A DNA stretch of 64,000 bases from Zygnema cylindricum (taxonomy: Eukaryota; Streptophyta; Zygnematophyceae; Zygnematales; Zygnemataceae), in the NCBI GenBank assembly GCA_037447655.1, contig JBBHKE010000967.1:62001-126000 (forward strand), given 5' to 3'. The position numbers and the translations under genes are program-made. The notes beneath the pieces are model-generated. The model made no database searches, was not told the origin of the DNA, and saw only the letters and a program-made list of their open reading frames with translations. Shown one piece after another: positions 1 to 63,240 of the stretch (the stretch's first letter is position 1; every line of letters starts with the position of its first letter).

Positions 1-3000
1 TGACACAAACTATTAACGCTAACAAGAATTATAACCTTAATTACACAAAGTGTTAGCAATAACAAGAATGGCTTTCTAACTTACACAAACTGTTAGCGAT
101 AGCAAAAATTGTTACCTAAATTACAGAAACAGTTAGCGATAACAAGAATTGTTATCTAAATTACACAAACATTTTGCAATTAGTGGAATTGTTATCTAAA
201 CTACACAAACTGTTAGCGCTAACAAAAATTGTTACCTAAATTACACAAACAATTAGCGATAACAAGAATTTTTACCTAAATTACACAAACAGTTATCGCT
301 AACAAGAATTGTTACCTAACTTACACAAACTGTTAGCTATAAAAGGAATTGTAACCTAACTGACACAAACTCTTATCGCTAACAAGAATTGTTATCTAAC
401 TTACACAAACTGTTAGCGATAACAATAATTGTTACTTTAATTACAGAAAAAATTAGCGATAACAAGAATTGTTACCTAAATTACACAAACTGTTAGCGAT
501 AACAGAAATTGTTACCTAAATTACACAAATTGTTAGCTATAAGAGGACTTGTTACCTAACTGACACAAACTGTTAGCTCTAACACGAATTGTTACCTAAG
601 CTAAACAAACTTTTAGTGATTACAGGAATTGTAACCTAAATTACACAAAGTGTTACCGATAACAAGAATTGTTTTCTAACTTACACAGATTGTTAAAGCT
701 AGAAGAATGGTTACCTAACTTACACAAACAGTTAGCGATAACAAGAATTGTTATCTTAATTACACAAACATTTTGCAATTAGTGGAATTGTTATCTAAAC
801 TACACAAACTGTTAGCGCTAACAAAGATTGTTACCTAAATTACACAAACAGTTAGCGCTAAAAAAAATTGTTACCTAACTTACACAAACTGTTTGCTATA
901 ACTAGAAATCTTACCTAACTGACACAAACTCTTATCGCTAACAGGAATTGTTATATAACTTACACAAACTGTTAGCGATAAAATAATTGTTACTTTAATA
1001 AAAGAAACAATTAGCGATAACACGAATTGTTACCTAAATTACACAAACTTTTTGCGATAACAGAAATTGTTGCCTTAATTACACAAACTGTTAGCTATAA
1101 GAGGAATTGTTACCTAACTGACAAAAACTGTTAGAGCGCTCTAACAGGAATTGTTATCTAACGTAAACCAACTGTTACCAATTACATGAATTGTAACCTA
1201 AATTACACAAAGTGTTAGCGATAGCAAGAATTGTTTTCTAACTTACAAAAATTGTTAGAGCTAGAAGACTGTTTATCTTACTTACACAAACAGTTAGCAA
1301 TAACAAGAATTCTAACCTAAATTACACAAACTGTTAGCGATAATAGGAGTTGTTATCTAAATTAAACAAACTTTTAGCGATACCAAGAATTGTACTCTAA
1401 ATTACCCAAACAGTTAGCAATAACAATAACTGTTATCTAAATTACACAAACTATTAGCGGTAACATGAGTTGTTATCTAACTCACACAAACTGTTAGGTA
1501 TAACAAAAATTGTTACCTTAATTACACAAATAATCAGTGATAACAAGAATTGTTACCTAAATTACACAAACAATTAGCGATAACAATAATTGTTACCTAA
1601 ATTACACAAACAGTTAGCGCTAAAACGAATTGTTACCTAAATTACAGAAACAATATGCGATATCAAAAATTGTTACCTAAATTACACAAATAGTTAAAGA
1701 TAACAAGAATATTTTTCTAAATTACACAAACTGTTTGCGATATTAAGAATTGTTACCTTAATTAGAGAAACAATTAGCGATAACAAGAATTGTTATCTCA
1801 CTTACACAAACTGTTACCGCTAATAAGAATGGTTACTTAACACAAACTTTAAGCGATAACAAGAATTGTAAACTAAATTACACTAGCAGTAAGTGATAAC
1901 ACGATATGTTACCTAAATTACAAAAACTGTTAGCGTAACAAGAATTGTTATCTAAACTACACAAATTGTTAGCGATAACAAGAATTGTTACCTAAATTAC
2001 ACAAACAATTAGCGATACCAAGAATTGTTACCTATATTACAGAAACAGTTAGCGATAACACGAACTCTAATCTAAAATACACAAACTGTTTGCGCTAACA
2101 TCAATCGTCATCTAACTTACACAAACAGTTAGCAATAACAAGAATTGTTACCTAAATTGCAGATACTGTTAGCGATAACAAAAATTGTTACCTAAATTAC
2201 ACAAATTGTTAGCGAAAACAAGAATTGTTACCAAAATTACACAAACAATTAGCGATAACAAAAATTGTTGCCTAAATTTCATAAATACTTAGCGCTAACA
2301 AGAATTGTTATCTAAATTACACAAACAATTAGTGATAACAAAAATTGTTTTCTTAATTACACAAACAATTAGCGATAACAGGAATTGTTACCTAAATTTC
2401 ACAAAATGTTAACGATAACTGGAATTGTGACCTAAATTACACAAATAGTTAGCGATAGCAATAGTTATTACCTAAATTACACAAACTGTTATCAATTACA
2501 GGAATTGTTTTCTAACTTACACAAACAGTTAGCGATAACAAGAATTGTTACCTATATTACACAAATCGTTAGCGATAATAAGAATTGTTACCTATATTAT
2601 ACAAACAGTTAGCGATATCAAGAATTGTTACCTAAATTACACAAACAGTTAGCAATAACAGGAATTGTTATCTTATTTACAAAAACAATTAGCGATAACA
2701 AGAGATGCTACCTAAATTACACAAACTTTTAGCCATAACAAGAATTGTTACTTAAATATCACAAACAATTAGCGATAACAAGAATTCTTATCTTAGTTAC
2801 ACAAACTGTTAGTGATAACTGGAATTGTAATCTAAATTACACAAACTGGTAGCGCTAACATGAATTGTCATCTAACTTACACAAACTGTTAACGATAACA
2901 AGAATTTTTACCTAAATACAAAAATTGTTCGCAATATCAAGAATTGTTACCTAACTTACACAAACAGTAAGCGATAACAAGAATTGTTACCTAAATTACA

Positions 3001-4665
3001 AAAAGATTTAGCGCTAACAAAAATTGTTATCTAAATTATAGAAAGAGTTAGCGCTAACAAGAATTGTTATCTAAATTACACAAACATTTAGCGATAACAA
3101 GAATTCTTACCTAAATTACACAAACAGTTAGCGATAATAGAAATTGTTATCAAAATAACACAAACTGTTAGGGATAACAAAAATTGTAGTCTAAATTACA
3201 CGATCTGTTAGCGCTAACATGAATTGTTATCTAACTTACAGAAACTGTTAGCGATAACAAGAATTTTTACCTAAATACAGAAATTGTTCGCAATATCAAG
3301 GATTGTTACCTAAATTACATAAACTGTTAGCGATAACAGGAATTGTTATCTAAATTACACAAACTGTTATTGATAACAAGAATTCTGACCTAACTTACAC
3401 AAACAGTTAGCAATAACAAGAATGGTTACCTAAATTACATAAATACTTAGCGCTAATAAGAATTGTTATCTAAATTACACAAACAATTAGTGATAACAAG
3501 AATTGTTTTCTTAATTACACAACTTATTAGCGATAACAGGAATTGTTACCTAAATTACACAAACTGTTAGCGATATCAAGAATTGTTACCTAAATTTCAC
3601 AAACAACTAACGTTAACAAGAATTGCTACCTAAATTACACAAAGAGTTAGCGACAATAAGAATTGTTACCTAAATTACAAAAACAATTAGCGCTAAAAGA
3701 AATTGTTACCTAAATTACACAAATTCTTAGCGAAAATAAAAAATGTAATCTTAAATACACAAACTGTTAGCGATAACAAGAATTGTTACCTAAATTACAA
3801 AAATATTAGCGATAATAAGAGATGTTACCTTAATTACAGAGGCTGTTAGCCATAACAAGAATTGTTACCTAAATATCATAAACAATTAGAGATAACAAGA
3901 TTTGTTACCTAAATTACACAAACAGTTAGCGCTAACAAGATTTGTTACCTAAATTAAACAAACAGTTAGCAATAACAAGAATTGTAACCTAAATTACATA
4001 AAGAGTAAGCGCTAACAGGAATTAATATCTAAAATACAAAAATTGTTTGCGCTAACAAAAATTGTTATCGTAGTTACACAAACTATTAGCGATAATTGGA
4101 ATTGTAATCTAAATTACACAAACTGTTAGAGCTAACATGAATTGTCATCTTACTTACACAAACTGTTATCAATAACAATAATTGTTACCTAACTTACACA
4201 AATTGTTAGCAATAACACCAATTGTTATCAAAATTACACAAACTGTTAGCGATAACAAGAATTGTTACCTAAATTACATAAAGAGTAAGCGCTAATAGGA
4301 ATTGTTATCTAAATTACACAAACTGTTAGCTATAACAAGAATGGTTCCCTAACTTACACAAACTGATAGCGATAAAAGGAAATTGTTATCTAAATTACAC
4401 AAACTGTTAGCGCTAAAATGAATTATAGTCTAAATTACACAAACTGTTAGCGCTAAAATGAATTGTTATCTAACTTAAACAAACTGTTAGCGATAACAAG
4501 AATTGTGACCTAATTTACACAAACAGTTAGTGATAATAGGAATTGTTATCTAAATTACACAAACTGTTAGCAATAACAAGAATTGTGACCTAACTTACAC
4601 AAAAAAGTAAGCAATAGTAAGAATGGTCACCTAACTTACACACACTGTTAGCGATAATAGGAATT
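1..4665. repeat. 40-bp satellite array, left block
   Basis: About 116 diverged tandem copies of a 40-bp unit fill this block from the first base. The unit reads approximately TTACACAAACTGTTAGCGAT followed by AACAAGAATTGTTACCTAAA. Each unit holds two short dyads, GTTA(N4)TAAC and AACAA(N3)TTGTT. Copies differ at scattered positions and some are 1 bp short. Blocks of variants recur at longer spacing, for example near 170 and 768, and near 2931 and 3290. I see no gene; the few short ORFs are chance readings of the repeat. A centromeric or heterochromatic satellite is plausible but not shown. Confidence 0.97.
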
Positions 4666-5530
4666 GTTGTTGTTCTGAGACAACTGCTGGCATTGAAGAT
4701 GAAGAAGATGCAGCAGTAGTCATCGTATAACAAATCAAAAGAGGAAGCTTCCACAAATACCGATGGCTGAACAGCAACTTTGACAGACTATTACTTTCAA
4801 AAAAACGCCCCAATGGTCCTGAAAATTTACCACATTGTAGATAACATAAAAAACAACACACACACATTATTTCAGTGAATTCTGCTCAAAGATTTGTGAG
4901 ATATGCAGAAATGAAATTACATAAAACTGAGTGTACAGTTTTCATATCATTTGTTCCTAATGAATAAAATTCACTAAGTCCTACTTCTATACATCGAAAC
5001 TACACTAAGCTGTACGGAGGCATTCCAGCCGTACATCTAACATTCTAACACAACAAATACTGTGAGTATACCTGTGTACTGAAGGTATGTCATAAACCAC
5101 ATTCTCAACACTAAACAACTAATTCACTACATACAAAATTTTGTTCTACCAAATATTTACACCGAAGTTCAGACAACGTAAAGTGATAGTGATCTAGTCT
5201 CGCCGATAGTGATCTAGTCACGCCTCGTCAGTATTTGTTGGCGCCGGCTGTCAACTGTCCGATTAGAGGATTTGGGACAGTAGAATTGACTTCACGAATT
5301 CCCGTGGTCCTGCCGAATTTCCGTACGTCCACAGAGGACATACTCACGCATTTCTCTCAAGTGACGACTTGTGTCCCAAGTGTGAATGAACCGCGAACTC
5401 CCAACTTTAGTGTCACACTAATTTTGGTAAGTACTGAACCGAACTCAACCAAAAATAACTTAAGTCTTGCACAGCTCTCTCTCCCTCACAACTGAGGCAT
5501 AGAGAGGACTAAAGCTTTCTTCAAAACAAC
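4666..5530. mobile_element. 865-bp TIR element inserted in the satellite, copy A
   Basis: This non-satellite block interrupts the array exactly within one unit. It is flanked on both sides by AATT (4662-4665 and 5531-5534), which is single in an uninterrupted unit, so a 4-bp target duplication is visible. The ends are short inverted repeats, GTTGTTGTTCTGA at the left and a right end whose complement begins GTTGTTTTGA. Related copies lie at 16855-17696 (complete) and 11273-11882 (truncated). The only ORFs are short and resemble nothing I know, so it looks non-autonomous. The ends do not fit a TG...CA LTR. The superfamily is unassigned. Confidence 0.85.
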
Positions 5531-8500
5531 AATTGTTACCTAAATTACACAAATTGTTAGCGATAACAAGAATTTTTACCTAAATTACACAAACAACTAA
5601 CGATAACAAGAATTGTTAGCTAAATTACAAAAACAGTTAGCGATCACAATAATTATTACCTAAATTACACAAACAGTTAGCACTAACATGAATTGTTATC
5701 TAACTTACACAAACAGTTAGAGCTAACAAGAATGGTTACCTAAATTACACAAACTGTTAGCGATAACAATAATTATTACCTAAGTTACACAAACATTTAG
5801 CGATAACAGGAATTGTTTCCTAAATTACACAAACTGTTAGCCATAACAAGAATTGTTAACTAAAGTACACAAACAATAAGCGATTACAAGAACTGTTACC
5901 TTAATTACACAAACATTTAGCGCTAACAGGAATTGTTATCTAACTTACACAATTTGTTAGCAATAACAAAAATTATTGCCTAAATTACACAAACAGTTAG
6001 CAATAACAAGAATTGTTTCCTAAATTACACAAACAATTAGCGCTAACATAAATTGTTATCTAACTTACACAAACTGTTAGAGCTAAAAAGAATGGTTACC
6101 TAACTTACACAAACTGTTAGCGATAACATGAATTGTTACCTAACTTACACAAACTGTTAGCGATAACAAGAATTGTTACCTAACTTACATAAACTGTTAG
6201 CGATAAGAAGAATTGTTACCTAAATGACACAAACTGTTAGCGATAACAAGAATGGTTACATAAATTACACAAATAATTAGCGATAACAAGAATTATTACC
6301 TAACTTACACAAACTCTTAGAGCTAATAAGAATGGTTACCTAACTTACACAAACTCTTAGCGATAACAAAAATTGTTATCTTATTTACACAATCTGTTAG
6401 CGCTAACAAGAATGGTTTCCTAACTTACACAAACTATTAGAGAAAACAAGAATTATTACCTATATTATACTAGTCGTTAGCGATAACAAGAATTGTTACC
6501 TAAAGTAAACAAACAGTTAGGAATAACAAGAATTGTTACCTAAATTACAGAAACAGTTAGCGATAATAATAATTGTTACCCAAATTACACAAACTGTTAT
6601 CGCTAACACGAATTGTTATCTAACTAACACAAATTGTTAGCGATAAAATGAAATGTTACCTAAATTACACAAACAATTAGTGATAATAAGATGTATGACG
6701 AAAATTTCACAATCAGTTAGCGATAACAAAAATTGTTACATAAAATACACAAACAGTTAGCGAACATAAGAATTGTTACTTTAATTACACAAACTGTTAG
6801 CGATAACTTGAATGGTTACCTAACTTACATAAATTGTTAGCGGTAACAGGAAATGTTACCTAAATTACACAAAGTGTCAGCGATACCATAATTGTTACCT
6901 AAATTACACAAATTGTTAGCGCTAAAAGGAATTGTTAACTAACTTACACAAACTGTTAGCGATAACAAGAATTGTTACCAAAATTACACAAACAGTTAGC
7001 GCTAACAGGATTTGTTATCTAACTTACACAAACTGTTAGCGATAACAAGAATTGTTACCTAAATTACTAAAAACAGTTAGCCATAAAGAGAATTGTTACC
7101 TAAATTACACAAACTGTTAGCGATAACAGGAATTGTTACCTAAATTACACAAACTTTTAGCGATAATAGGAATTGTTACCTAAATTACACAAACTGTTAG
7201 CGATAACTTGAATGGTTACCTAACTTACACAAACTGTTACCGCTAATAGGAAATGTTACCTAAATTACACAAACTGTTAGCGATAACAATAATTCTTACC
7301 TAAATTACACAAACTGTTAGCTCTAAAAAGAACTGTTATCTAACTTACAAAAACAGTTAGCAATCACAATAATTCTCACCTAAATTACACAAACAGTTAG
7401 CACTAACATGAATTGTTATCTAACTTACACAAACAGTTAGAGCTAACAAGAATGGTTACCTAACTAACACAAACTTTTAGTGATAACACGAATTGTTACC
7501 TAAATTACACAAACTGTTAGCCATCACAAGAATTGTTAACTAAATTACACAAACAATTAGCGATTACAAGAATTGTTACCTAATTACACAAACATTTAGC
7601 GCTAATAGGAATTGTTATCTAACTTACACAATTTTTTAGCGATAACAAAAATTGTTACCTTAATTACAGAAACAGTTAGCGATAACAATAATTGTTTCCT
7701 AAATTACACATACAGTTAGCGCTAATATGAATTGTAATCTAACTTTCACAAATTGTTAGAGCTAACAAGAATGGTTACCTAACTTACACAAACTGTTAGC
7801 GATAACATGAATTGTTACCTAACTTACACAACCGTTAGCGATAACAGGAATTGTTACCTAACTTACACAAACTGTTAGCAATAACAAGAATTGTTACCTA
7901 AATTACAGAAACAGTTAGCAATAACAATAATTGTTACCTAAATTACACAAACAGTTAACGATAACAAGAATTGTTTCCTAAATGACACAAACTGTTAGCG
8001 ATAACAAGAATGGTTACCTAAATTACACAAACTGTTAGCGATAACAGGAATTATTACCTAACTTACACAAACTCTTAGAGCTAATAAGAATGGTTACCGA
8101 TCTTACACAAACTCTTAGGGATACCAAGAATTGTTATCTTATTTACACAAACTGTTAGCGCTAACAATAATGGTTACCTAACTTACACAAACTATTAGAG
8201 AAAACAATAATTGTTACCTATATTATTCAAATCGTTAGCGATTACAAGAATTGTTACCTTAATTAAACAAATAGTTAGCAATAACAAGAATTGTTACCTA
8301 AATTAGAGAAACTTTTAGCGATAATAAGAATTGTTACCCAAATTACACCAACTGTTATCGCTAACATGAATTGTTATCCAACTAACACAAATTGTTAGCG
8401 ATAACAAGAATTGTTACCTAAATTACACAAACAATTAGTGATAACAAGATGTATGACCTAAATTTCACAAACAGTTAGCGATAACAAGAATTGTTACCTG

Positions 8501-9100
8501 AAATACACAATCAGCTAGCGATAACAAGAATTGTTACCTAAATTACACAAACTATTAGCGATAATTTGAATGGTTACCTAAAATACACAAACTGTTAGCG
8601 ATAACAAGAATTGTTACCAAAATTACACAAACTGTTAGCGCTAATAGGATTTTTTATCTAACTTACACAAACTGTTAGCGATAACAAGAATTGTTACCTA
8701 AATTACTAAAAACAGTTCGCGATAATAAGAATTGTTTCCTAAATTACACAAACTGTTAGCAATAACAAGAATTGTTACCTAAATTACACAAATTGTTAGC
8801 GATAATAGGAATTGTTACCTAAATGACACAAATTGTTAGCGATAATAGGAATTGTTACCTAACTTACTCAAACTGTTAGCGCTAACAGGAAATGTTACCT
8901 AAATTACACAAACTGTTAGCGATAATAATAATTGTTACCTAAATTACACAAACTGTTAGCCCTAAAAAGAATTGTTATCTAACTTAAACAAACTGCTAGC
9001 AATACCAAAAATTGTTACCTAAATTACACAAACAGTTAGCGATAACAAGAATTGTTACCTAAATTACAAAAACAGTTAGAGATAGCAAGAATTGTTACCC
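5531..9100. repeat. 40-bp satellite array, right block
   Basis: This is the continuation of the same 40-bp array, about 89 units. A long-range duplication is visible. Rare variants such as a unit containing GATGTATGAC recur near 6688 and 8445, and TATATTAT-containing units recur near 6462 and 8219. Both pairs are about 1757 bp apart, close to 44 units. The array stops at about 9100, four bases before the ATG of a decayed retroelement, with no LTR or transition sequence between them. Confidence 0.97.
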
Positions 9101-9104
9101 AAAA

Positions 9105-10665
9105 ATGCCGGGTATGGGGATTTTAGATTTTACCACGGTAGTCACCCGGACTCAAGAACTGGTAGATCTTTTGAAATCTTAGGGCCAGGCTACGACGGCG
9201 TCTGGACCCATCGTTGTAGATTAGGAGGCCTTAGAGGTGGAGAGGCAAATTTTATGGGAACATAAATTGAATCTTATTCAGAAAGCTTGGCGTAGGTCTA
9301 GTGGGATTTTCCGCGGGTCTGTTCTCACTTATCCAAGAGCGCCAACGTAGGAAACGACTCCCATTTCAGAAACTCAACCTGGAATTCCACCCTCAAAAAT
9401 TAGATGAGATCCACCTCTTCAGCGGGAAGGGGGGGGGATAACAAGACTAATGGGAAGGGGCTGGTTGCAAATCTACCTCGTGAACTTGCTCCTTCTCCTT
9501 GAGAAATGCCCACCTTTGTCTTGGTGGAGGTCTCCTCTACCGTGGATTCTTTGGTGGAATTACGACTGGACGAAAGGTTGCACTTTCATTTAAGACCGTC
9601 CACCCCTCCTCTCAAACCAACTTACCCACCATCTTTCCCTACAATACAGAAACTGCCTTCCGGTTTCGAAATTTACAAGACGGAGAAACAACTGCGGGAG
9701 AATGAATCACTAGAGAGAGAGAGAGATAGTGTAACCATGACTAGTTTGAGAAATAAGTGTCAGAACGCCCCAACGACGACACTCTAGGGACTCCTCTTTT
9801 ACAGGATTCACGCTGCGAGAGTGAGGAAACAGGAGGAAAGGAGCAAGAAAAATTGGAGGAACTAGATTCCTCATTTTCATCACCGAAAGCTTAACCTCTT
9901 TGTTCCAAGCCGATGGTCATGTGAGTAAGGCACCTCACGCCCTACGCCCTCACCCATGTCAAAACTTTGGCCTCATCCCACAATCACCAAGAAAAAATCC
10001 TCATTCAGGCATTGGGAGAGGAAATACACTCGGGAAGAGAAAAGGTCGCAAGGGCAAATCTGCCAAATGCCGTCTTTTTGTCCGCAGAACCAAAAACCCC
10101 TATGATGGATAAGGATTATAAGGCATTATCGGTAGCTCTAATTCTGAACCGGACCGGAAATTTCAAGCTTAACAAATACGGCGGGTATCAAGATGTAGTG
10201 GTCGACACCTGGGCGCTCCCAAACCTCAATACCATTTCGGCTTTATAGCAGATGCAAAAGGAACTCTGGCCAAAAATTTGCCCGAGCAGCATCTGCCTAA
10301 GTACGGTTAGCAGCAAAAGTCAGCCAGTTTATCGGATAATCAACGTCATAGAGATTGAAATTTCCGATATCGCAGGTCAACGAGTCTAAATTGAGCTTCC
10401 ATTCTTAGTGGTTGAAGGTACGCAATTTGAAATTTTGTTGGGTATGGCCACATGGATCCGGCTGAACTTGGGGTTAAATGTGTGGAAAGAGCAGTTAACC
10501 GTTCGGGACCCCAGTGATTCGGAAAGAACAAAGGTGGTGGTTCATTTGAATTTATGGAATCGGAGGAAGACTAATGTCCCTGTGTCTAGATGTTACCCAG
10601 TGTATGCAACCTCCTCTCTGACGCAACTTTTCGCTTGCTCCTCGGATATAGCGGAGGAGATTTAG
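9105..10665 (+). pseudogene. Decayed retroelement gag and retropepsin-like region
   Basis: A reading frame opens at ATG 9105 with a short stretch typical of a gag start (MPGMGILDFTTVVTRTQELV) and is soon broken by stops. After a hydrophilic linker (9506-9787) with frame changes, one frame can be followed from about 9838 to 10665 across several in-frame stops. It contains a retropepsin-like domain: VVVDTWALPNL near 10195 in place of the usual DTGA motif, and LPFLVVEGTQFEILLGM near 10395-10445, a typical C-terminal flap and helix of Ty3/gypsy proteases. The Gly-to-Trp change in the active-site triplet and the stops make it non-functional. No LTR, primer site or reverse transcriptase is seen next to it. 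A cytosine methyltransferase domain follows directly. Ty3/gypsy is the best fit, by inference. Confidence 0.6.
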
Positions 10666-10742
10666 CAATTCCCCATTTATAAGCGAGGGGAAGAGGAATA
10701 TCAGGAGAGGATATTAAAAATGGTGACACTTCGACAACGAGT

Positions 10743-11276
10743 GGATAGGACCTATTCACCTCTATTACCAAGAAACTTTTAAGCCTTCGGACAAAATCTT
10801 TGGAGATCCTATGTAAAGGTGACAAATTCAACCTACAAGTGGTGTCATTAACAATTCCAGATTCAAGATTCCGGATTCAATCTCTGTGTTCGGAAATCAG
10901 TTCTAATTTTAAAGCGGTTTTAAAAGTGGGATATAAGGTGGAAACCTATTCAGCTGTAGAAATCTCACCCGAGGCCCGAGCATTCAGCAAACACCGCCTA
11001 CACCAGCTCCACCAACTTTATCCTCACCAGCTTCTATTGTCCGCATTTTCAAAATATCACATAAGTCTTCCCTAGAATGTGGAGAACATCATGACACCTC
11101 ATCTAGCCAGTCTGGGAAGAGTGGATTTGGTAGTGGCAGGATTGCCTTGTCAAGGATACTCCCTTGCAAGATAAGGAAAGGGGCATAGAGACAGCAGAAG
11201 TAGAACATTTTTTCAGATGATTCAATTATTCTCATGGATACAGTAGCTCCAAAACACACCAGTGGGGTATGTGTTG
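10743..11276 (+). pseudogene. Truncated cytosine-C5 DNA methyltransferase domain, retroelement-associated
   Basis: One frame (third forward frame) reads as the N-terminal half of a C5-MTase fold, which methylates cytosine in DNA using S-adenosylmethionine. Motif I appears as SLCSEISSNFKAVLKVG near 10881, with the glycines of the usual SAM-binding loop degraded. Motif II follows (YSAVEISPEAR, acidic residue near 10959). A NVENI segment stands where the motif III DVRNI-type segment belongs. Motif IV is DLVVAGLPCQGYS, with the catalytic Cys codon at 11148-11150, and is followed by GKGHRDSRS and FFQMIQ. The frame is broken by TAG at 11073, TAA at 11172 and TAG at 11244, all one step from Gln codons. 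It ends at PVGYVL (11259-11276), just where the ENV motif should begin, at the edge of a repeat element. Motifs V-X are missing. The family call is confident; the clade is not. Confidence 0.78.
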
Positions 11277-11882
11277 TTTTGAGACAACTGGTGGCATTGA
11301 TGATGAAGAAGATGCAGCAGTAGTCATCGTATAACATATCAAAAGAGGAAGCTTCCACAAATACCGATAGATGAACAGCAACTTTGAGAGACTATAACTT
11401 TCAGAAAAACGCCCCAATGGTCCTGAAAATTTACCACAGTGTACATAACATACAAAGGAACACACACACAAATTTGAATGAATTCCGCTCACAAATCTGT
11501 GAGATATGCAGAAATGAAATTACATAAAATTGAGTGTACAGTTTTCATATCATTTGTTCCTAATGAATCAAATTCACTAAGTCCTACTTCTAAAAACCGA
11601 AACTACACTAAGCTGTACGGAGGCATTCCAGCCGTACATCTAACATTCTGACACAACAAATACTGTGATTTTACCTTTGTGCTGAAGGTTTGTCATAAAC
11701 CACATTCTTAACACTAAACAACTAATTCACTACATACAAAATTCTGTTCTACCAAATATTTACACCGAAGTTCAGACAACGTAAAGTGATAGTGATCTAG
11801 TCACGCCTTGTCAGTATTTGTTGGCGGGGGCTGTCAACCGTCCGATTAGAGGATTTGGCACCGTAGAATTAGCTTTCCCGAT
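11273..11882. mobile_element. Truncated copy B of the 865-bp TIR element
   Basis: It is colinear with 4666-5530 and 16855-17696 from the left end (GTTGTTTTGAGACAAC) through the CACTAAGTCCTACTTC and GTAAAGTGATAGTGATC blocks. Similarity is lost near 11865-11882, so roughly the last 250 bp are missing. Its left end falls inside the methyltransferase frame and terminates it. The right end is gone, so the target duplication cannot be checked. Confidence 0.85.
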
Positions 11883-12169: not shown

Positions 12170-12377
12170 GACTTAAAACTGATTCTTATCTTCTTGGTGT
12201 ATTTGAAGGGATCAAATGACTTCCCTTTATCCATTACCACTAGGTTCTTAACTAGAATGACATCTTGTTTAGCTAAGTCATAGACTTTATATCCCTTGTC
12301 ATCCTCATCATATCCCACAAAATATCTTGGTTTCCCCTTAGCATCTAGGATCCGGTTTTTCCAATCTGTGTTCCAAA
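12170..12377 (-). pseudogene. Ty1/copia pol fragment (integrase C-terminal region)
   Basis: Read on the minus strand this encodes the segment after the copia integrase core. Recognisable pieces are KPRYFVGYDEDDKGYKVYDL and VILVKNLVVMD followed by DPFKYTKK. The same region occurs in the copia copies at 23987-24217 and 61400-61560. Only about 68 codons remain. It joins a Ty3/gypsy fragment directly at about 12377, so the junction is a recombination or deletion scar. Confidence 0.85.
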
Positions 12378-12936
12378 TATTGTCGAAAGATGGAATTCAT
12401 CAAATGCATAAAAGTTGCTAGTGCATTAGTCAACCTGAACAGCATAACTTAAAACTGAAAATGGCCGTATCGAGTTGTAAACGCTGTCTTTTCCACATCT
12501 TCCTCGGCAATTCTGATCTGATGATAACCGCTCCGCAAGTTTATCGTCGAAAAATATTTAGCTCCTGGTAAACCATCCCACAATTCGTCTATCCTCGGTT
12601 GAGGGTACACATTCTTCACCGTTAACTTGTTTAGCGCTCGGTAATCCACACACATTGGAAAACCTCCATCTTTCTTATACACGAAGAGGATGGGGCTCCA
12701 TACAGTGATTTGCTTGGTTCAATTGCCCCGACTTTGACCAACTCCGTAAATTGCTTTTTGAGTTTGTCTAATTTGGTGTAACTCATCTTGTACATCCGAT
12801 TAGCCGGGGGTATCGCTGCGGGCACAAGCTCTATCTTGTGGTCTACCTACCGCTTTGGAGGTAATCCTTCTAGGAGCTTCGGGGGAAAAACGTCAACTTA
12901 CTCCTCGAGAAGTTTTGTCACAACTTCGTGTAACTC
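12378..12936 (-). pseudogene. Ty3/gypsy reverse transcriptase fragment
   Basis: The minus strand reads a gypsy RT N-terminal half. It has [20 protein letters not shown], a frameshift near 12690, then [14 protein letters not shown] and [20 protein letters not shown]. It matches the RT of the gypsy element at 55.4-56.3 kb over its whole length, down to shared non-coding choices such as AAAGATGGAATTCAT. It lacks the FLDD catalytic motif and everything after it. It is joined to copia pol on one side and to a copia LTR on the other. Confidence 0.9.
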
Positions 12937-16808: not shown

Positions 16809-18222
16809 TCAAGCGTTTCCAATAATCGTACGAACACGTTTAGTGGGAGTAGTAGTTGTTGTTCTGAGAAAACTGCTGGCACTAAAGATGAAGAAGATGC
16901 AGCAGTAGTCATCGTAGAACAAATCAAAAGAGGAGGCTTCCGCAAATATCGATGGCTGAATAGCAACTTTGACAAGCTATAACTTTCACAAAAATGATCC
17001 AATGGTCCTGAAAATTTACCACAGTGTAGATAACATACAAAAAAACACCCACACATAATTTCAATGAATTCCGCTCACATATCTGTGAGATATGCAGAAA
17101 TGAAATTACATAGAACTGAGTGCACAGTTTTCATATCATTTGTTCCTAATGAATCAAAAATTCACTAAGTCCTACTTCTATACACCGAAACTACACTAAG
17201 CTGTACGGAGGCATTCCACAGACATCTAACATTCTAACACAAGAAATATTGGAGTATACCTTGGTAACAAGGTATGTCATAAACCACATTCTCAACACTA
17301 AACAAATAATTCACTACAAACAAAATTATGTTCTACCAAATATTTACACCGAAGTTCAAACAACGTAAAGTGATAGTGATCTAGTCACGCCTCGTCAGTA
17401 TTTGTTGGCGGCGGCTGTCAACTGTCCGATTAGAGGATTTAGCACCGTAAAACTGACTTCACGAATTCCCGTGGTCCTGCCGAATTTCCGTACGTCCACG
17501 GAGGACATACTCACGCATTTCTCTCAAATGACGACGCGTGTCCCAAGTGTGAATGGACCGTGAACTCCCAACTTCACTGTCACACAAATTTTGGTAAGTA
17601 CTGAACCGAACTCAACCAAAAATAACTTAAGTCTTGAACAGCTCTCTCTCCCTCACAGCTGAGGCATAGAGAGGACTAAAACTTTCTAAAAACAACAGTA
17701 GTTTGATCACTTCTCTATCATGTCGTACAAAGAATGTAACTATAGCCTACGTGCTTTATTGTGTGTGGCACCAGTGGTTCTAGTTCAGACGCAGAGAATA
17801 CTCAAAGATTTTAAAATCACATAAATTAAACTTATATTTGCACGGATGGACGAAATTTAACATTTGTAGGATGGTATTAAACTTTAAGATTCGTTTGTGC
17901 GTACTTTATTACTGTTCAAATCGTCCCATTATGTTCTAAACGCGAAGTCTTTCTCCCGAAGGTTAATGGATAGCAAAAAAAGTGTTATAGGATATCCTCA
18001 CGCTAAGATTTTTTTGTCAGCTGCGTTGGATTTGAATCCACCATTTCCGATTGCATATGGCCTTTGTCGATTGTAGGTATTTTTCGCAAATCAACGGTGG
18101 ATCATATATTTTATTTATAATTGTATCAATCGTACATGTCTACTGTAAGACTATTTTTTTCTTTGAAAACACATGAGGACACTATCAAAAAATTGGATAG
18201 AACGAGCGTTTGCATTGAAAAC
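16809..18222. repeat. Diverged duplicate R2, split by an insertion
   Basis: The left piece (16809-16854) and right piece (17697-18222) together match R1. The intervening 842 bp is a TIR element. The split point is flanked by AGTA on both sides. Confidence 0.6.
16855..17696. mobile_element. 842-bp TIR element, copy C
   Basis: It is full length relative to copy A, with the same GTTGTTGTTCTGAG start and AAAACAAC end. AGTA flanks both sides (16851-16854 and 17697-17700), giving a second independent 4-bp target duplication. Internal ORFs are short and unrelated to known proteins. Its two independent insertions show that the family has moved in this genome. Confidence 0.87.
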
Positions 18223-30736: not shown

Positions 30737-31955
30737 TGTTGAAATTAAAAGTTTTTTTATGTATTTTCTAGGTTTATTAATTGATCTAAAATGAGGAGGA
30801 AAAAGCAGATGCAGCCTGCTTCTAACTTCTCTCTCTAGCCCCCATACTTACCGTAGTCACTGAAGGTTGGGGAAAACGCTAGAGCCATGGCTACCTATGC
30901 TTTCTTTAGAGTGAGAAGGCAACCCTTTTGGTAAACTTACCAAAAAGGTTGACAGACCCAGGATTTGAACTTGGTACCTACCGTCCGTCGAAATGGCCCA
31001 GTGTCGTTACCATGTAGCCTAGCACTTGTGTCGAAGTATATAGGGTACAATAGCTACTCAAAGATGTGGAAATAGAGAAGTCCATTTAACTGACGAACGT
31101 ACCACAATCACATAAACATATTTAAATAGAATTACATCGAAAAGAACTGCTTGTATTTTAACTGCTATAAATTAAGGACGATATCAATTGAGCGGTGGAG
31201 GAAGAAGCCGGCATCACGGAATGGAAGATTTGGCGGTTTGTGGTCACAACTACACCGGGTGATACGTGGCAACATTACATTGGATAGCTGCATCTACGGG
31301 ATATACCATGGCAAACCCAGATATGGTAGGCGTCGCCTTCTTGGCCATGACGTAGAATGGTCGTACAAAAAGTACTCCGGGCCAAGTACCTTTTTGTACT
31401 ATACAGTGAATTGATTGGCTTCGTACTTCAGTTGTAGAGGGTTTAGAGAGGGGTTTAGGACTTAGCAAAATTAGAGGTAGCCGCCTCTCTCCTAGAGTAC
31501 TTATGTATAATAGGTCATCTTGACCATTGATAATTCACTGCTCAGGGGAGCAAATTTAATGAATCTTTTTGTAGTAGGCTCAGGGGAGTCTGCTAATTTC
31601 AGATCATGAAATTTGGTCAGTCTGTATTCTGTCAGGGTGTCAGTAATACTCACACAAAGATTAAGTGATGTCAAGGTGTCAGTAATACTTATACAAAAAC
31701 TAAATGATTGTGACTATCCTAGAGGCTTCTGGTAAGCTGCCTACTCTGAGTACCAATAGAGGTCTCAAAGTCACAACATCTTTTCAGAAATTTTACCCCT
31801 CTCCCAACCAAAAAAAAAAAAACAACATCTGAATAACATTATTTTATAATTTTTTTTCTTCGTAAACTAGTTATATTTGATTTTGATGTTGACCCGTAAA
31901 AAATCTAACATCTTCCCATGATTTTAGCATTTTAAGTCATTTCTTAGCTTTGACG
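30737..31955 (+). mobile_element. Copia-family LTR copy C
   Basis: It begins TGTTGAAATTAAAAG and has the TATTTTCTAGG, CTAGAGCCATGGCTACC, tRNA-like, GTGATACGTGGCAAC and GTTTAGAGAGGGGTTTAGGA blocks of the family in plus orientation. The part from about 31230 is duplicated in tandem downstream. The tRNA-like module lies antisense at 30951-31032, with a B-box-like GTTCAAATCC on the minus strand. Confidence 0.75.
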
Positions 31956-31956
31956 A

Positions 31957-32683
31957 TTTGGCGGTTTGTGGTCACAACCACACCGGGTGATACGTGGCAA
32001 CATTACATTGGATAGCTGCATCTACGGGACATACCATGGTGAACCCAGATATGGCAGACGTCGCCTTCTTGGCCATGACGTAGAATGGTCGTACAGAAAG
32101 TACTCCGGGCCAAGTACCTTTCTGTACTATACAGTGAATTGATTGGCTTCGTACTTTAGTAATAGAGGGTTTAGAGAGGGGTTTAGGACTTAGCAAAAGT
32201 AGAGGTAGCCGCCTCTCTCCCATATTACTTATGTATAAGAGGTCATCTTTGACCATTGATAATTCACTGCTCAGGGGAGCAAATTTAATGAATCTTTTTC
32301 TAGTAGGCTCAGGGGAGTCTGCTAATTTCAGATCGTGAAATTTGGTCAATCTGTATTCTGACAGGGTGTCAGTAATACCCATACAAAGATTAAGTGATGT
32401 TAGGGTGTCAGTAATACTTATACAAAGACTAAATGATTGTGACTATCCTAGAAGCTTCTGGTAAGCTGCCTACTCTGAGTACCAATGGAGGTCTCAAAGT
32501 CACAACATCTTTTCAGAAATTTTACCCCTCTCCCAACAAAAAAAAAAAAAAACAACACCTCAATAACATTATTTTATAATTTTTTTTTCTTCGTAAACTA
32601 GTTATATTTGATTTTGATGTTGACCCGTAAAAGATCTAACATCATCCCATGATTTTAGCATTTTAAGTCATTTCTTAGCTTTT
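31957..32683 (+). repeat. 727-bp tandem duplication of LTR 3' part and flank
   Basis: 31230-31956 and 31957-32683 match at nearly every base, from TTGGCGGTTTGTGGTCACAA to GTCATTTCTTAGCTTT. The unit joins LTR sequence to about 160 bp of flank, so it duplicated after the LTR inserted. High similarity suggests it is recent compared with the LTR decay. Confidence 0.9.
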
Positions 32684-36571: not shown

Positions 36572-39500
36572 ATGGCATCCGATTCTGACGACGAGTTCTT
36601 CGAAGCTTCTCAGGATCTTCCTAGTGCTCAGACATCACCAAGCAGGTCTCCACTGCTTCAGCAATGGAAGGTAGCTCCTGGAAGTATCCAGGAAAGGAGG
36701 GAGAAGCTTTTGGAAGCTATGAGATTGCAGCAACAGGTGCGTACCAACTCTGACTTTTTAATAACTATGCACATCAGCATGAGCACTCCTCTGTTAGATG
36801 ATAGATACAATAGTTCTCAGACATGAAGTTTCTCATGTATCCGCTGTTAGGTTAATTTTAAGAGCGAAATCTCTTTCAATAATTGATTAGCTCTTACTCA
36901 TTATTTGAATCATTCTTAGACGATTGAAATATTAATTGGATTGTTTTAATTGTTTATGGACAAATAGAACATTGTTATTTCGTCTTCCCAATGGTAGTTG
37001 TGACTTTACAGTGTTACTTTCTTTTTTCTTTTTTGTATTACGATCATAACTTACTGAGTTGTTAGATAAGAATGTAGTGCTGAATTTTATTGGCATAAGT
37101 GGAAGCAACAGTAAATTTAAAAATCAAGAAATCAGTTGAGATGTCATTGAAATATGTATAAAAGGAAAAACGAGTGAAGTAATAAACAAGAAATAAGTCG
37201 AGATTCTATTGAAGTATGTCTATAAGGAAAAACTAGTTAAGTAAGAAACAAGAAATACGTAACTTATATGATTTGCCTGTTGCAGCTTCGAAGCTCAACA
37301 AGAGGCTCGTCTTTAATCGAATCCAGTGGGAGCCATTCCCATACTTCAAAAATTAGTGCTGCTGAACCAGATATTGTTAAAGAGACAGGAAACATGGTTG
37401 CAAGGCAGAAATGGCAGGAATGTTTCATGACTCATGAGGACAAAAGCGTTGAGAATCACAAGGGAAAGGAGGAAAGGAGTTTTCTTTTGGCAAGTGGTAT
37501 CCACGCTGGAGCACCTGAAAAACCCATCTCATCTGGATCGTGCATACCCTCCTTTCCGCAGATGACCGAAAGTGAGGTATCAGGAAGTTTTTCCGAGGCA
37601 AAGATTCCAGACATGCACATATTGGATCAAGTTCCTGCCGAGAATATTCTAACGGTACAAGCTGGTAGGAGAGGAGAAGGGGCAGCCACGGAGTTAGCCG
37701 GGCAGACGCCTTTAGCCATTGCAAGTCCTCCAGAGCCACAAGGACAAGGCCAACTGGTGTCTGAACACATGCCAAGTTTTGGTTTATGGAGAACAGAACT
37801 GCTTGAACTTGTGAAACCAAGTGTTCTTTTGCCAAATGCGGATGTCTTGCAACTCAGGGAGAATCCTGGCTTTGGGGACGACACTTGGAGCAAGAAGAGA
37901 ACAGAAGCTACAAATGGTTTGTTTAAAGATTTTGATGAAGATCAACGAAGCTTGTCAACTTCTCTTGAGGTAGCAAGTGCCCCACTGCATCCATCTTCAA
38001 ATTTACAACTCAAACACGTATCAGATTTTCACATAGAAGAGGAGAAGAAAGTATTAACGGAAGTAAACTCATCGTCAAATAAGCGGGTAGTAGCTATTTC
38101 TGAGACAGTGTTGCATCCATGGTCAAGAAAGGCAGGACAGCCCGAGATTGGACAAAGACGCCTGGTGTTTACACAGAATGGTGGGAGTGGGGTAGACGAG
38201 AGTGGAGAGAGTAGTGAAAGTCAATTGGTGCGCACTCCTGAAGACGAGAGTGAGACTTCAGAGGATGATTGGGGAAGTCCTGTTTTAGGATCTCTTGAGA
38301 CAGGAAATATAGCTTTGGTGCGTATGGATGAAAACGGTATCCAGGAGGGGTTGCCAGAAGAAGATAGTAAAAGTTCGTCAGTTTCTTGGTCAGACACCAT
38401 AGCACCTCAAATGGATGAGACAAAGTTGCACGATGGCAGTAAATTTGTTGAGGAAACAATTGCAGTGCAGGAAGTAGGTGATAACAACAGGATAAAACAT
38501 CCAAGCGGCAAGAGGGGCACGTGGGGAAGAGGAGGTAATGTTGTTGAGGAACATATGGACAGTAGCGAACTGAAAGAGTTGGTTATGAAGATAAAAGATT
38601 TGGATACAGGCAGAGAATTTATTTTGGATGACGTCATAGCTGGGAATGAAATGGTGGGAGGAGATCAGCAGCATATTCATACGGAAGTGAAGAATGAGCC
38701 TCGCGTACGAGAAGTGGGAACAGGAAGAGAATTTTCATACACAGAGTTTGAGGACACACTGGGCATTTCCCCGTTGACAAAAGAGCTGGCGAGGAGGCAG
38801 CGACAGGGAAAGGCAACGGATATTACTGGAGAAGAAACTCCAGAGGTTCATCTGAGGGGAGAGGACAGGCAACCTGGATGCACGCCCCAAGGAGAAGGAA
38901 AAGGAAAGAGGAGAGGGTGGTTGAAAACACTCAGGGGAAAAGGGACAGGCAGTAAACTTGGAATTGGTGGAGATAGTGGAGGAGGGCTTGCATCTGTAAA
39001 AGTTCACATCAACAAAAAAGGTCATAAGGAGCTATCAGACCTGCGACTAGGTCATGAAATTCATGGACATGAAGGCTACATTTCAGCTCTGGAGTTTAGC
39101 GCTGATGGAAGGTTCCTGGCCAGTGCAGGACAAGATGCCCTTGTGAAAATTTGGGAGGTTGTCAAACTGGGGGCAGTTCCAAATGAGAAAAGCACCTCCC
39201 CTAGATTAATCCGTGGAGGTGATGGGGCAAGGGAGCATTCTAAATGCACAAATGATTCTACTAGAGTTGCGCCAGCCTCGTCTCAAACTTTTGGAGAGAA
39301 AGATGAAATGCTGAAGGACTCGTATGACATTAGAGGGGTGCAAACTCCGGGAGCGAAAGGAGGGGGCCCTCGTTTGCCAAGAACTTTAAGTACCGAGGGA
39401 CAGGATCAAAGTGGAGATGAGTTTGGAGCGCGAATTTCTTCAGAGTCGGTGTCTCTGAATGGCTTATTCAATGCTGAGAGGGAGTCCACATTTCGATTGA

Positions 39501-42500
39501 AAGAGCAGGCCATTCGTTGTTGGGAGGGACATGACGCAGAAATACACGACCTCTCATGGTCTAAAGTAAAGCCATATGTACGTGATTGCAACTTGAAAGG
39601 CTATTTTTTCAGCGCAGGGTGCATGCTTTTGTTTTAATATCAGGGTCCATGTCTTTTGAGATAACCCTCAAGATTACCAACTTCAACTGGTTTAACGGAG
39701 AGAAAAATTGTTATGGCAGAAATTTGTGCTGTCGGCATCTTCAGACAAGACAGTTCGCCTATGGCATATGGATGTGGAGGGCTGCTTGCGTGTCTTCAAG
39801 CACAGTGATTGGGGTGAGTGAAGATGGACTGCTATTGTGAAGTTTCTGTACCTGGGGAAGAGCGAAAGGGCTGCGTATGATTTCTGGCTGCTTTAGTTCA
39901 TTGCAGAATATTACAAAACTTCTGCCAAGATGGTAAAGAGTAATATGTATATTTTAGTCTATTTCTTTCTGGTTGGGCATCCTCCTGGTGGGTTTAGACA
40001 ATTTTTAACACCTCTGACATATACACACTGATTTTGTACCGAGTCGCCCGGTTGAAATTCATCTTCCATTGTACTCCGACAATGACAATTTCCAGTGATT
40101 TATTCTAAAAGGACTTATTGAAGATTGTGTCAATTGTACAGTAATGCACATAGACAGCATATTCTTGCTGCAACTTAAAATATCCCATGTTTTATCATTC
40201 TTGCTGAACCTAGAGGTTAGTTTGCTTTGATGTCTCAATTTAATACGATGAAGGTTTTGAAAATCTAGGAGTTTTTGAGTTTCAACATTTATTGTTGCAA
40301 ACCAAACTTATGGTTGGGGACCACTTAAGGGTTTTCCCAACCAAGCAAGACTGTCAAATTTGCCTAACCAAACCCTGTAAACCACTTAACTTTGAAGTGT
40401 TTTAAATCAGAACTGCCAGCTTTGGATTTCGCATTTGGGAAAGCGAACCTGATATTCGTCTATGTATCAGTTTCTATATGTTTTGAGAATATATTGAACA
40501 CCTTCCAATCATTTCCATTGTGAACATTGTTTTTGGTTTTTCCATGATCTTTTTCCAAAGGAAGCATTTACAACGTCCATACAGATCTGAACAAGACATC
40601 AGAAGTCAATCTGTCTTTTTCTTCCTAGACCTGTCAACAAATCATACTCAAGGCCAATTTGCAATCACCAAACTGCTGCAAGACTACAACCTCATTTGCA
40701 TTGGGCTGGTTTAATTTTTAATTTCTCCCTACCAAAAGAGTCAAATAAACAACCGTATAAAAAGAATCGCAGAAATTGGCACCTCTCAATCTTTGTGTGT
40801 TGTGTGGATGTTGAGTCTCTCTATTTTGGGTGAAACTCCCTGCATATTAGCTTAAATCCGTACACCTGTATGTCCATTACTCTGTTGAACTCTTCGGTAC
40901 TGCATGGCAGTTCAGACCGGGTGCGGGTTGTACCCTCCAAAACACTTAACTTTAGGTATTGCTCAAATCGAACCAAAATGGTTCACACCGTTATGGCCAC
41001 TTTTCAAAAATAACTTCCTGGAAAACCATTGTTGTTCAATTTGAACCAAAATGGGGCTGAGTTTTAATTTTTGCCCATTAGTCTTAAAACACAAAATCAA
41101 GTCAAAGATGCTTGATGGGCTGTTGTTTCAGATGGTGTCTCAACTCCTTTTTTGTGACATTTGCTGACATTTTTTTTTGGCGATGCACTATATTTCATGA
41201 TAGAGCAGCATGCTGTTTTCTGGCAAACGATGGTGGACTATGATTATTAGTTTTTTGAGGTATTTTAGTTAATCTCTTGGAATGTTTTGGTATTGTGATG
41301 TTTTTTTGCAGTTACATGTGTCGACTTCAGTCCCAGCAATAAACGTCTTTTTGTGAGCGGTTCTTTGGACCAAAAAGTCCGTTTGTGGAGCCTCGCAGCA
41401 GCGGAGCATGCGGTGGAGGATTGGACTGATCTCAGAGAGTGGATAACTGCAGTGACATTCACATCTGACGGTCAGGTGAGTGAATGAGAGCTGAGAGAAT
41501 AAGAGTGGAGGGCGACATCGAGGATTTTTCTGCTACGCTATTCACCACTGTTTTTGCAGTAAGTTTATAGTTGTGTTGCCATTGCTAAACCACACCAATG
41601 TCAGTTCCAACGCTCCCAAATTAGTCATCGACACTAACTCATGTTCTGCTAAATAAATTAAAGTTAATACACAAAAATGACTTAGTTCATAATCAATATG
41701 GATCCCACTAATAGTGTTGGAAGTTTAGCAATAAGTAAAGTTGCACATCAGCAGTTATTTTCCGATAAATGATATGGGTATGTGTCTCTGATAAACGATG
41801 TATTGGTTCATTTTGTTTGCAATATACAACTGTAAGTATATTTCGTTGACGACTAATTGTACAGGTTCTGAGCTAGTACGACGCTCTTTTTACATGTCGT
41901 TGGGCATAACAGGTGACAATGTCATGGATATTCCCGTCCAATAGTTCCAGTGGTGTTTTCAGGCAAATAGAACTGTCGACTCAATGATATTTGCTTCAGA
42001 ACTAATATTTTGAACGTACAAAAGGGGCATAATCGTACTTTCCTTTTGGTACTGCCCTTTAAGTTCCATCCTTGCTTGTGGTTTATTGGCAGTGCATTTA
42101 TCGATATGTAAGAGAATTGCCATTTTGAAGTCGTTTTTGGCACTTATTGGTTTTGTCAAACCACTGATGCACACCTTTATCAGTGAAGTATTTGGAAGCA
42201 AAGTGAATGGTTTTCGAGGCCTAAACTCTGAGGCCTTGAATCAGGGAGACGAAGTGAGCTTGATGGGTTGCCCTAGGGTAGCCTCAGATTTTTAAATGGA
42301 TCAGTAAAAAGAATTGATAGGGAAAACTGTTAATCTCTGTTGGGTTAATAACACTATTTGGTTGTTCCTTTTTTTGACCTAAAACCATAGAAAACATGAA
42401 ATAGTGGAAAATAACACTATGCAAAGGAACGACCAGCATATTTCATGTCACTCAACGTTAGTAACCAGTATTATCTATTCTAATTTTTGCACCTTCACTT

Positions 42501-51086: not shown

Positions 51087-51917
51087 TGTAACAGGATTTC
51101 CTACCTCTCTGAAAATCCCATTACTACAAACAATTTCAACCACACATTCCACACATTGTAAAATACACATCCACATTGGAAAACACTCACATAAGGATAA
51201 ACTTTAAATTAGAAGAAGCTTCTGTCCACATAACATTAGCTTGGTCTCTTGCCCTCGTGGCTCAACCCTTCAAATTAAAGTGTTTCCTCTACTCTCCACT
51301 CTTAATAATTATATCTCTTAACTACTAAAACACTATTTAGTTAGTAAGAGATTTCAATGCAAAAATGCCTTTTCTCCAATTTGGTATTAATCGCTTACCT
51401 GGGCCAATCATTGATCAGCAAAGACTCAGACTGACCAATGCAAAAACGTGCGAAATCTCTTACTAACTACTTAGCACTTTATTAACCAATCAAACGTTAC
51501 GTTTCACTACGTAACATTTACGTGCAAAAGTGCGCGCCAAACGAAACGCGACTTCGCACGATCGTGCGTAACAAATTTCGCACGCGAAACTTCCAACGAA
51601 ATTCCCTTAAGTAAAAGTGACGTTTCGTACAAAAATTTGTACGAAACGAACCACCGTGCATACTAAACGTTTCGTTAGAACTTTATGAAACGTACACGCG
51701 TAATTTTGGTACTAATTTGACCCTTAACCCGTTTCAATGATACCCACTTGTTATTAAGACCACAGGCTATCACCTAAATACACCCATCGCTATAACTTTT
51801 AAAATATAACTCCAAATAGCGTGATTCTTTCGCGGACGTCTACCAAATTTAGTACTCTATAATCATAATACCTAAATACCCCTTTATAAACAAGTTCGAT
51901 CCGCTATTGCTGTTACA
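51087..51917 (-). mobile_element. 3' LTR of gypsy element G1
   Basis: The 831-bp LTR, read on the minus strand, starts TGTAACAGCAATAGCGG right after the polypurine tract and ends with CTGTTACA before AGTGT. A TATAAAGGGG motif lies about 30 bp in. 51555-51917 is nearly identical to 62879-63240. A small inverted repeat (about 51322-51365 with 51437-51482) folds its distal part. Confidence 0.72.
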
Positions 51918-55062: not shown

Positions 55063-55064
55063 CA

Positions 55065-57895: not shown

Positions 57896-57915
57896 GCTGT
57901 CGAGTCACGAGAAAT

Positions 57916-62607: not shown

Positions 62608-62878
62608 AACCTCAATATAAAATTTTCAATATCGCTACCCACTTAAATCCACTATCGGATCCCAGAATTATTGTTCACCCATAGTAACTTTGCCCAATTC
62701 CCAGTTTAATCATGGTTTTAATGCGCACATGCAAAGTATTTCAGATTGCTTTGCAAATCATACGTGCCACCAAGCAAAGCATGTTTAAAATCATGCTTTG
62801 CAGTGAAAATGAATTCCCTTAAAGCAACCTTCAAAGCGCACGCTTTAAACAATGCGTGCTAGCACGCTTCAGCGCAAT
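62608..62878. other. Unassigned segment next to LTR remnant
   Basis: It is rich in AAAGCA/GCTTTG motifs. It does not match the corresponding part of the LTR at 51087-51554. No gene is seen. Confidence 0.4.
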
Positions 62879-63240
62879 CGCACGATCGTGCGTAACAAAT
62901 TTCGCACGCGAAACTTCCAACGAAATTCCCTTAAGTAAAAGTGACGTTTCGTACTAAAATTTGTACGAAACGAACCACCGTGCATACTAAACGTTTCGTT
63001 AGACTTTATGAAACGTACACGCGTAATTTTGGTACTAATTTGACCCTTAACCCGTTTCAATGATACCCACTTGTTATTAAGACCCCACGCTATCACCTAA
63101 ATACACCCATCGCTATAACTTTTAAAATATAACTCCAAATAGCGTGATTCTTTCGCGGACGTCTACCAAATTTAGTACTCTATAATCATAATACCTAAAT
63201 ACCCCTTTATAAATAATTTCGATCCGCTATTGCTGTTACA
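62879..63240 (-). mobile_element. 5' LTR remnant of G1
   Basis: It is nearly identical to 51555-51917, differing at a handful of positions, and ends in CTGTTACA followed by AGTGT. Its outer end faces the CASP start codon 44 bp away. Confidence 0.8.

Follow-up and report, generated by a model that had tools for sequence, protein, structure and literature searches.

Within the window, meaning the whole analyzed stretch of 64,000 nucleotides from Zygnema cylindricum, one frame had been described as carrying a cytosine-C5 DNA methyltransferase (MTase) domain directly after a retropepsin-like domain. The question raised by this locus was whether the enzyme belongs to a retroelement and, if so, to what kind of element and in what state. 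The segment from 9099 to 11271 is very probably the remnant of a Ty3/gypsy-type retrotransposon, decayed and truncated at its 5' end, in which Pol opens with a Dnmt3-class cytosine MTase. In this copy, a gag-position open reading frame (ORF) was followed by the protease, an in-frame TAG, and the MTase (Table 1). The start of the fragment, placed at 9105 in the preliminary description, was revised to ~9099, within the region matching the gag-position ORF of relatives.

Table 1. Features of the MTase-bearing fragment and its surroundings (window positions)
Feature	Position	Strand	Remarks
Solo LTR, same Copia family, inside satellite	4668..5531	+	5-bp duplication ATTGT
40-bp satellite array, 5' border of fragment	5525..9103	+	
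Gag-position ORF remnant	9099..9619	+	Two overlapping matches, 9099-9431 and 9407-9619
Decayed retropepsin (protease) ORF	9835..10662	+	70% identity with L013:3477-4313 across 276 aa
In-frame TAG, then CAATTC, at protease/MTase border	10663..10665	+	Candidate readthrough stop; invariant in 15/15 family-A-type loci
Pol start, decayed Dnmt3-class C5 MTase	10666..11271	+	Motifs I to V; PF00145; cut before motif VI
Copia-element LTR, 5' part (3' part missing)	11272..11868 (end approximate)	+	90% identical to LTR 4668-5531
Solo LTR, same Copia family	16857..17697	+	5-bp duplication GTAGT

Identity and class of the methyltransferase

The occurrence of C5-MTase motifs in order, as first described, was confirmed by Pfam, by probes, and by shuffled controls. 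A translated comparison with C5-MTase profiles gave 26.6 bits with the Pfam model DNA_methylase (cut-off, 22), and the NCBIfam model dcm matched with an E value of 3.6e-9 (36.7 bits, under the model cut-off of 100.65). Of five MTase probes taken from the sequences of DNMT3A and HhaI, four scored higher in one and the same frame than anywhere else in the ~127,800 window positions, and their order there was the right one; the fifth, covering HhaI motifs I-II, scored best elsewhere in the window than in the MTase frame. With either of these MTases, the tblastn score of the fragment was not reached by any of 1000 dinucleotide shuffles. The MTase frame contained 3 stops, against a shuffle mean of 6.1, and 106 of 2000 shuffles had counts as low. 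The motifs had also been called correctly spaced, which was corrected for motifs II and III, the linker between them being longer than that of DNMT3A (tblastn gap of 16 residues). The last residues of PVGYVL are translated from a Copia LTR; the MTase letters stop at 11271.

The class was read from two relatives in the same genome, L013 and L009. The L013 MTase matched DNMT3A in the PDB with an E value of 1.8e-14 over 216 residues, and DNMT3A, 3B, or 3C constituted the top 29 of its 48 rows; HhaI, a bacterial MTase, and DRM ranked below them, and none of the 48 rows was named DNMT1 or CMT. The L009 MTase matched DNMT3A with an E value of 1.5e-10, and DNMT3 constituted the top 29 of 40 rows. By this ranking of PDB matches, the MTase is assigned to the Dnmt3 class. 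Structure prediction for the window MTase and protease gave pLDDT values of 34 and 43, with no Foldseek match at E<=0.001. In IMG/VR, neither the window MTase nor the protease retrieved a relative, and the MTase alignment retrieved two distant loci (best segments 29% and 42% identical). The scan of prokaryote genomes found no relative, and the protein database search with the window MTase gave 79 candidates, 0 of them at E<=10.

Parts and decay of the window fragment

The retropepsin-like domain reported before the MTase was borne out through a relative. The window protease itself had no match in Pfam or the PDB, and its identity was settled because the L013 counterpart (E value of 9e-117) has an intact DTGA motif; that counterpart scored 22.3 bits with Asp_protease_2, just under the cut-off of 24.3. 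In a probe-pair test devised after the protease had been seen, the site ranked second among distinct window places. The protease frame at 9820-10745 contained 5 stops, against a shuffle mean of 11.4, with only 10 of 2000 shuffles as low, and two stretches upstream had ordinary stop counts (1550/2000 and 273/2000 shuffles as low).

The label gag was given by position, the relatives' ORFs at that place being without a Pfam match. By tblastn, the gag-position remnant matched ORF 1-1530 of L012 (42% over 117 aa with an E value of 1e-19, and 40% over 73 aa) and ORF 636-2783 of L013 (45% over 73 aa). The window MTase was 64% identical to L013 Pol over 164 aa (10785-11276) and 51% identical over 35 aa (10666-10770). 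The piece was thus colinear at the gag position, protease, and Pol start with the L012/L013 group, here termed family A (the L009 group is termed family B; both labels are coined here), and a tree placed it next to family A, in a group that also contained L023 and L025. Decay had been noted from the start and was corroborated in the MTase by three further stops and by one frameshift, located between ~10770 and ~10785, but the TAG at the protease border proved to be a family feature rather than decay. This copy is inactive, having lost its 5' end and acquired the extra stops and the frameshift, and a Copia LTR replaces everything past MTase motif V.

The satellite at the 5' border consists of 40-bp units occupying 1-4668 and 5525-9103 (~206 copies, 77-81% matches), and the two blocks are split by a solo Copia LTR. 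At the other border, the LTR starts exactly where the MTase letters end, either as an insertion in the MTase or as sequence joined to it; the loss of its 3' part leaves no target duplication to compare. No RT follows the window MTase because this LTR cuts the element at 11272. The truncation before RT that had been described therefore stood, RT being absent at this place, and its cause was identified as an unrelated Copia LTR. Full-length LTRs of this family measured 841-864 bp in the window. Genome-wide, the LTR gave at least 41 rows (40 of 1874 candidates scored), including two pairs ~5 kb apart. The interior of one pair (L029) contained Pol_BBD, GAG-pre-integrase, rve, and then RVT_2, which is the Copia order, and contained no MTase.

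Other features were observed elsewhere in the window. A gypsy element on the minus strand at 54500-57904 was better preserved, containing gag (Retrotrans_gag), protease, and RT and showing no MTase match; the MTase-bearing fragment did not match this element by tblastn, and its RT shared 84% identity with an RT piece at 12374-12927. On the plus strand at 37241-45048, open frames resembling exons matched WD40 (37.8 bits, and 17.6 bits under the cut-off) and probably represent a host gene with long introns. A 364-bp repeat with two copies 98% identical (51554-51917 and 62878-63240) looked far younger than most window repeats, and a head-to-tail duplication of ~730 bp with 95% identity was found at 31224-31951 and 31952-32682.

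Relatives in the same genome

The 352.8-Mb assembly (2689 contigs) was searched for further copies. All 123 scored candidates matched PF00145 (782 candidates at first look), and five of the matches lay in open frames of >1500 aa. With 40 of 942 candidates scored, the DNA of 9104-11271 matched itself and at least 42 further rows; of the 43 rows listed, 40 were >=600 bp, identity was 69-81% with the window's own row excepted, and the longest matches ran from ~9612 to ~11269. A protein search with the L013 MTase found at least 109 places and one second piece (109 of 1929 candidates scored), and the true number of MTase places is probably larger. Among the matches listed, 59 of the 109 MTase places were followed on their strand by an RT row at a distance of 469-691 bp, and 59 of 150 RT rows had an MTase place upstream (73 of 150 when 16 hand-picked PF00145 places were added); since this pairing was scored among the matches listed, a missing partner in other rows means little. 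The longest open frame around an RT match listed was 5743 aa (G000:C961:71851-72375).

The preliminary description had linked the MTase to a retroelement by adjacency and shared strand. This link was substantiated, in that protease and MTase recurred colinearly at many places and the MTase lay in frames that also encode RT and integrase. The order gag, protease, MTase, RT, and integrase, which had been suggested for a genome check, was present among the relatives, e.g., in the L009 frame. Two options had been offered, a gag-protease-MTase order and an MTase placed before RT, and the second was correct.

These copies and the Copia interior bear on two other readings of the fragment. The LTR at 11272 begins exactly at the MTase end and on the same strand, as it would if it were the 3' LTR of the MTase element itself and the MTase were the last domain. 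We consider this extremely improbable and dropped it: LTRs of this family are those of a Copia element with RVT_2, the LTR was absent from the fetched MTase loci, and the MTase breaks before motif VI, with RT coming next in the relatives. That a host Dnmt3 pseudogene merely adjoins a retroelement relic might be argued from the window alone, which shows no RT, and from the presence of host DNMT3 genes in plants outside angiosperms, according to passages in PMC6453930. This can hardly be the case, however, as protease and MTase recur together and colinear at many genomic places and the MTase is found in open frames together with RT and integrase; genomic copies with protease, MTase, RT, and integrase refuted the pseudogene reading, and it was rejected. 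The fragment is thus best read as part of a gypsy-type element.

Domain organization of the two families

Eight 10-kb stretches were fetched, chosen for long frames; most of the fetched loci except L009 carried at least one break. The domain order by Pfam was (Gag)-PR-MTase-RT-RNaseH-integrase-PHD. In L009, a single frame of 2395 aa contained a zinc knuckle (449-464; 16.6 bits, under the cut-off), MTase (942-1078), RT (1496-1647), RNase H (1739-1841), an integrase zinc domain (1962-2015), rve (2035-2128), and a PHD finger (2338-2382); Pfam listed no protease in L009. The L009 order was spread over two or three frames in L010, L011, L015, and L016. L012 and L013 had MTase-RT-RNaseH-integrase-PHD with a weak PHD (21.5 and 17.5 bits, under the Pfam cut-off), and L014 had MTase to rve, its frame ending there. 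Protease scored 17-22 bits, under the cut-off of 24.3, in L010, L011, L013, L015, and L016.

The PHD finger exceeded the Pfam cut-off in L009, L010, L011, L015, and L016 and matched PHF12 with an E value of 3.6e-17. All eight zinc ligands of the C4HC3 pattern were invariant in 6 of 6 aligned copies from both families. In the relatives, Pfam gave no chromodomain behind the integrase at E<=0.01, the PHD finger standing at that place, and listed no phage integrase or tyrosine recombinase; an rve integrase was present.

Identity between families A and B was ~42% in the MTase, 51-56% in RT, 53-57% in the integrase, and 31-34% in the PHD finger; family B is a second, deeply diverged lineage. Motif IV read PCQ in L001, L002, L003, L008, L012, L013, and the window and ECQ (Glu-Cys for Pro-Cys) in L005, L009, L010, L011, L014, L015, and L016, where the rest of the domain is under purifying selection; the pattern used for this survey missed L004 and two decayed copies.

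The repeats of L009 were arranged as A (~931 bp), coding region, B (~243 bp), A, and B, with the A pair 100% identical over 920 bp, the B pair 99.6% identical, and TTGG flanking the unit. The same layout was found in L015 (A, ~1388 bp; B, 190 bp; flanks, AAGG) and L016 (A, ~1475 bp; B, 192 bp; flanks, CCCT). Hence, A-coding-B-A-B with 4-bp target duplications of the integrase type was present in 3 of 3 copies checked, all of family B. In L014, the long repeats at 4-786 and 8148-8931 were inverted relative to each other, in contrast to the direct repeats of L009, L015, and L016; they were 97% identical to each other and 77% identical to the L009 repeat.

Conserved TAG and catalytic capacity

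In family A, an in-frame TAG separated the protease and MTase frames in 14 of 14 distinct spanning loci found by BLAST, including the window, and L003 made 15 of 15; L006 and L017, which repeat L013 and the window, and L024, which does not span the border, were left out of this count. The TAG was followed by CAATT in 14 of the 15 loci and by TAATT in L019. Across 81 codons compared, it was the sole codon invariant in 15/15, the average codon matching L013 in 7/15; the CAA and TTC codons after it matched in 14/15, as did one other codon. The segments for this 81-codon comparison were chosen with a TAG-containing pattern, and the BLAST set (14/14) was not so chosen. Family B was without the TAG: L009, L010, and L011 were open across the border, and the stop of L016 there was TAA. 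The context UAG-CAA-UU resembles the leaky stop context UAG-CAR-YYA. Judged from this conservation, the invariant TAG looks like a site of programmed readthrough.

In selection estimates, dN/dS for L012-L013 was 0.16 in the MTase, 0.08 in RT, 0.09 in the integrase, and 0.24 in the PHD finger; for L015-L016, with few changes, it was 0.15 in RT, 0.36 in the integrase, and 0.27 in the PHD finger. Among family-B MTase pairs, L009-L010 gave 0.32 on almost no changes, and in the five other pairs dS was saturated and dN was 0.114-0.166. As far as these ratios indicate, the MTase is under purifying selection. The CpG observed/expected ratio lay between 0.89 and 0.94 for five copies of family B and between 0.62 and 0.63 for L012 and L013; it was 0.79 for the window with the satellite excluded and 0.51 for a Copia element without MTase. 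In these ratios, no consistent scar of self-methylation was found. The window MTase stretch contained 8 CpGs against 22.8 expected (P of 0.007 relative to the rate of the window). Counts this low were, however, present in 10% of 515 window stretches, and the depletion was not taken as evidence.

Two functional interpretations were weighed against these data. The TAG may be an ordinary decay product or inherited mutation rather than a functional leaky stop, as some of the 15 loci are close kin (L001, L002, L008, L012, and L013 are 93-95% identical) and family B works without a stop there. We consider this unlikely, since the stop is the one codon of 81 that never varies at a site where the average codon is kept in about half of the loci, the two codons after it are nearly as constant, and the context resembles a leaky one. 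A somewhat unlikely interpretation is that the MTase of these elements no longer methylates DNA and serves as a binding or structural domain or acts on RNA. ECQ at the catalytic motif of family B and the inconsistent CpG depletion point in this direction, as does the Klebsormidium nitens domain, which gave no methylation in yeast, a result that its authors call inconclusive (PMC5890265). On the other side, family A retains PCQ and ENV, and the MTase dN/dS is 0.16.

Proposed mechanism

A Ty3/gypsy-type family very probably captured a Dnmt3-class cytosine methyltransferase as its first Pol domain. The main product would be Gag-PR, and occasional readthrough of the UAG in family A would yield a long Gag-PR-MTase-RT-IN-PHD protein. 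The MTase would travel with RT and could methylate new cDNA or the fresh insertion, and the PHD finger may tether the integration complex to histone tails. We tentatively suggest that such elements might be mobile writer-plus-reader units, in which Dnmt3 and a histone-reading PHD finger are joined in one Pol, UAG readthrough sets the dose in family A, and de novo DNA methylation would be both supplied and directed by every insertion itself; the Glu-Cys enzyme of family B may be modified or noncatalytic. The elements are old, because silent sites are saturated between family-B copies, and partly recent, because the 920-bp repeat pair of L009 is 100% identical. The PHD finger and the conserved TAG offer testable handles on why a retrotransposon carries an enzyme usually used to silence it.

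Comparison with known systems

Chromoviruses are Ty3/gypsy elements with a chromodomain behind the integrase. The elements described here likewise carry a chromatin-reading domain at that place, but it is a PHD finger, and they carry an MTase as well. DNMT3A, 3B, and 3C, as PDB chains, are the best-matching MTase class, but the enzyme here lies within a retrotransposon Pol and has a longer linker between motifs II and III. A limited literature search met no description of a gypsy element with both a PHD finger and an MTase.

MTase-bearing gypsy elements have been described previously from one alga, and here they are numerous (at least 109 MTase places). According to the report of KnitGypsy-Dnmt3 from K. 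nitens (de Mendoza et al. 2018; PMC5890265), that element encodes a Dnmt3-class MTase within the ORF of a gypsy-type Pol, its MTase is under purifying selection (Ka/Ks < 0.2), and its repeats are A-coding-B-A-B as given in the Fig. 4 legend, a pattern called DIRS-like. Passages in a 2025 survey (PMC12344493) also mention DNMT3 in retrotransposons. The report on K. nitens also names SymbioDIRS-Dnmt3 and SymbioLINE-Dnmt of Symbiodinium as retrotransposons with cytosine MTases, those of the DIRS elements being of the Dnmt3 class (PMC5890265); in contrast to these elements, of which the former has a tyrosine recombinase and the latter is a LINE, the Z. cylindricum elements encode an integrase of the DDE type (rve) and are flanked by target duplications of 4 bp.

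The likeness to KnitGypsy-Dnmt3, as its published text presents it, extends to the Dnmt3-class MTase inside the Pol ORF (in L013 and L009, by PDB ranking), to the gypsy-type Pol with RT, RNase H, and an rve integrase behind RT (seen in relatives, the window copy being cut earlier), to the A-coding-B-A-B repeats (3/3 family-B copies checked), and to purifying selection on the MTase (L012-L013). The differences, compared with the text of that paper rather than the domain order of its figure, are the PHD finger behind the integrase and the family-A TAG before the MTase; neither a PHD finger nor readthrough was found in the main text of PMC5890265, and their absence from print is not claimed. The copies listed here are also far more numerous, and they include a second lineage with ECQ. 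The window feature is accordingly classed as a decayed member of a KnitGypsy-Dnmt3-like family, a kind already known, which is present here as a variant that has additional features.
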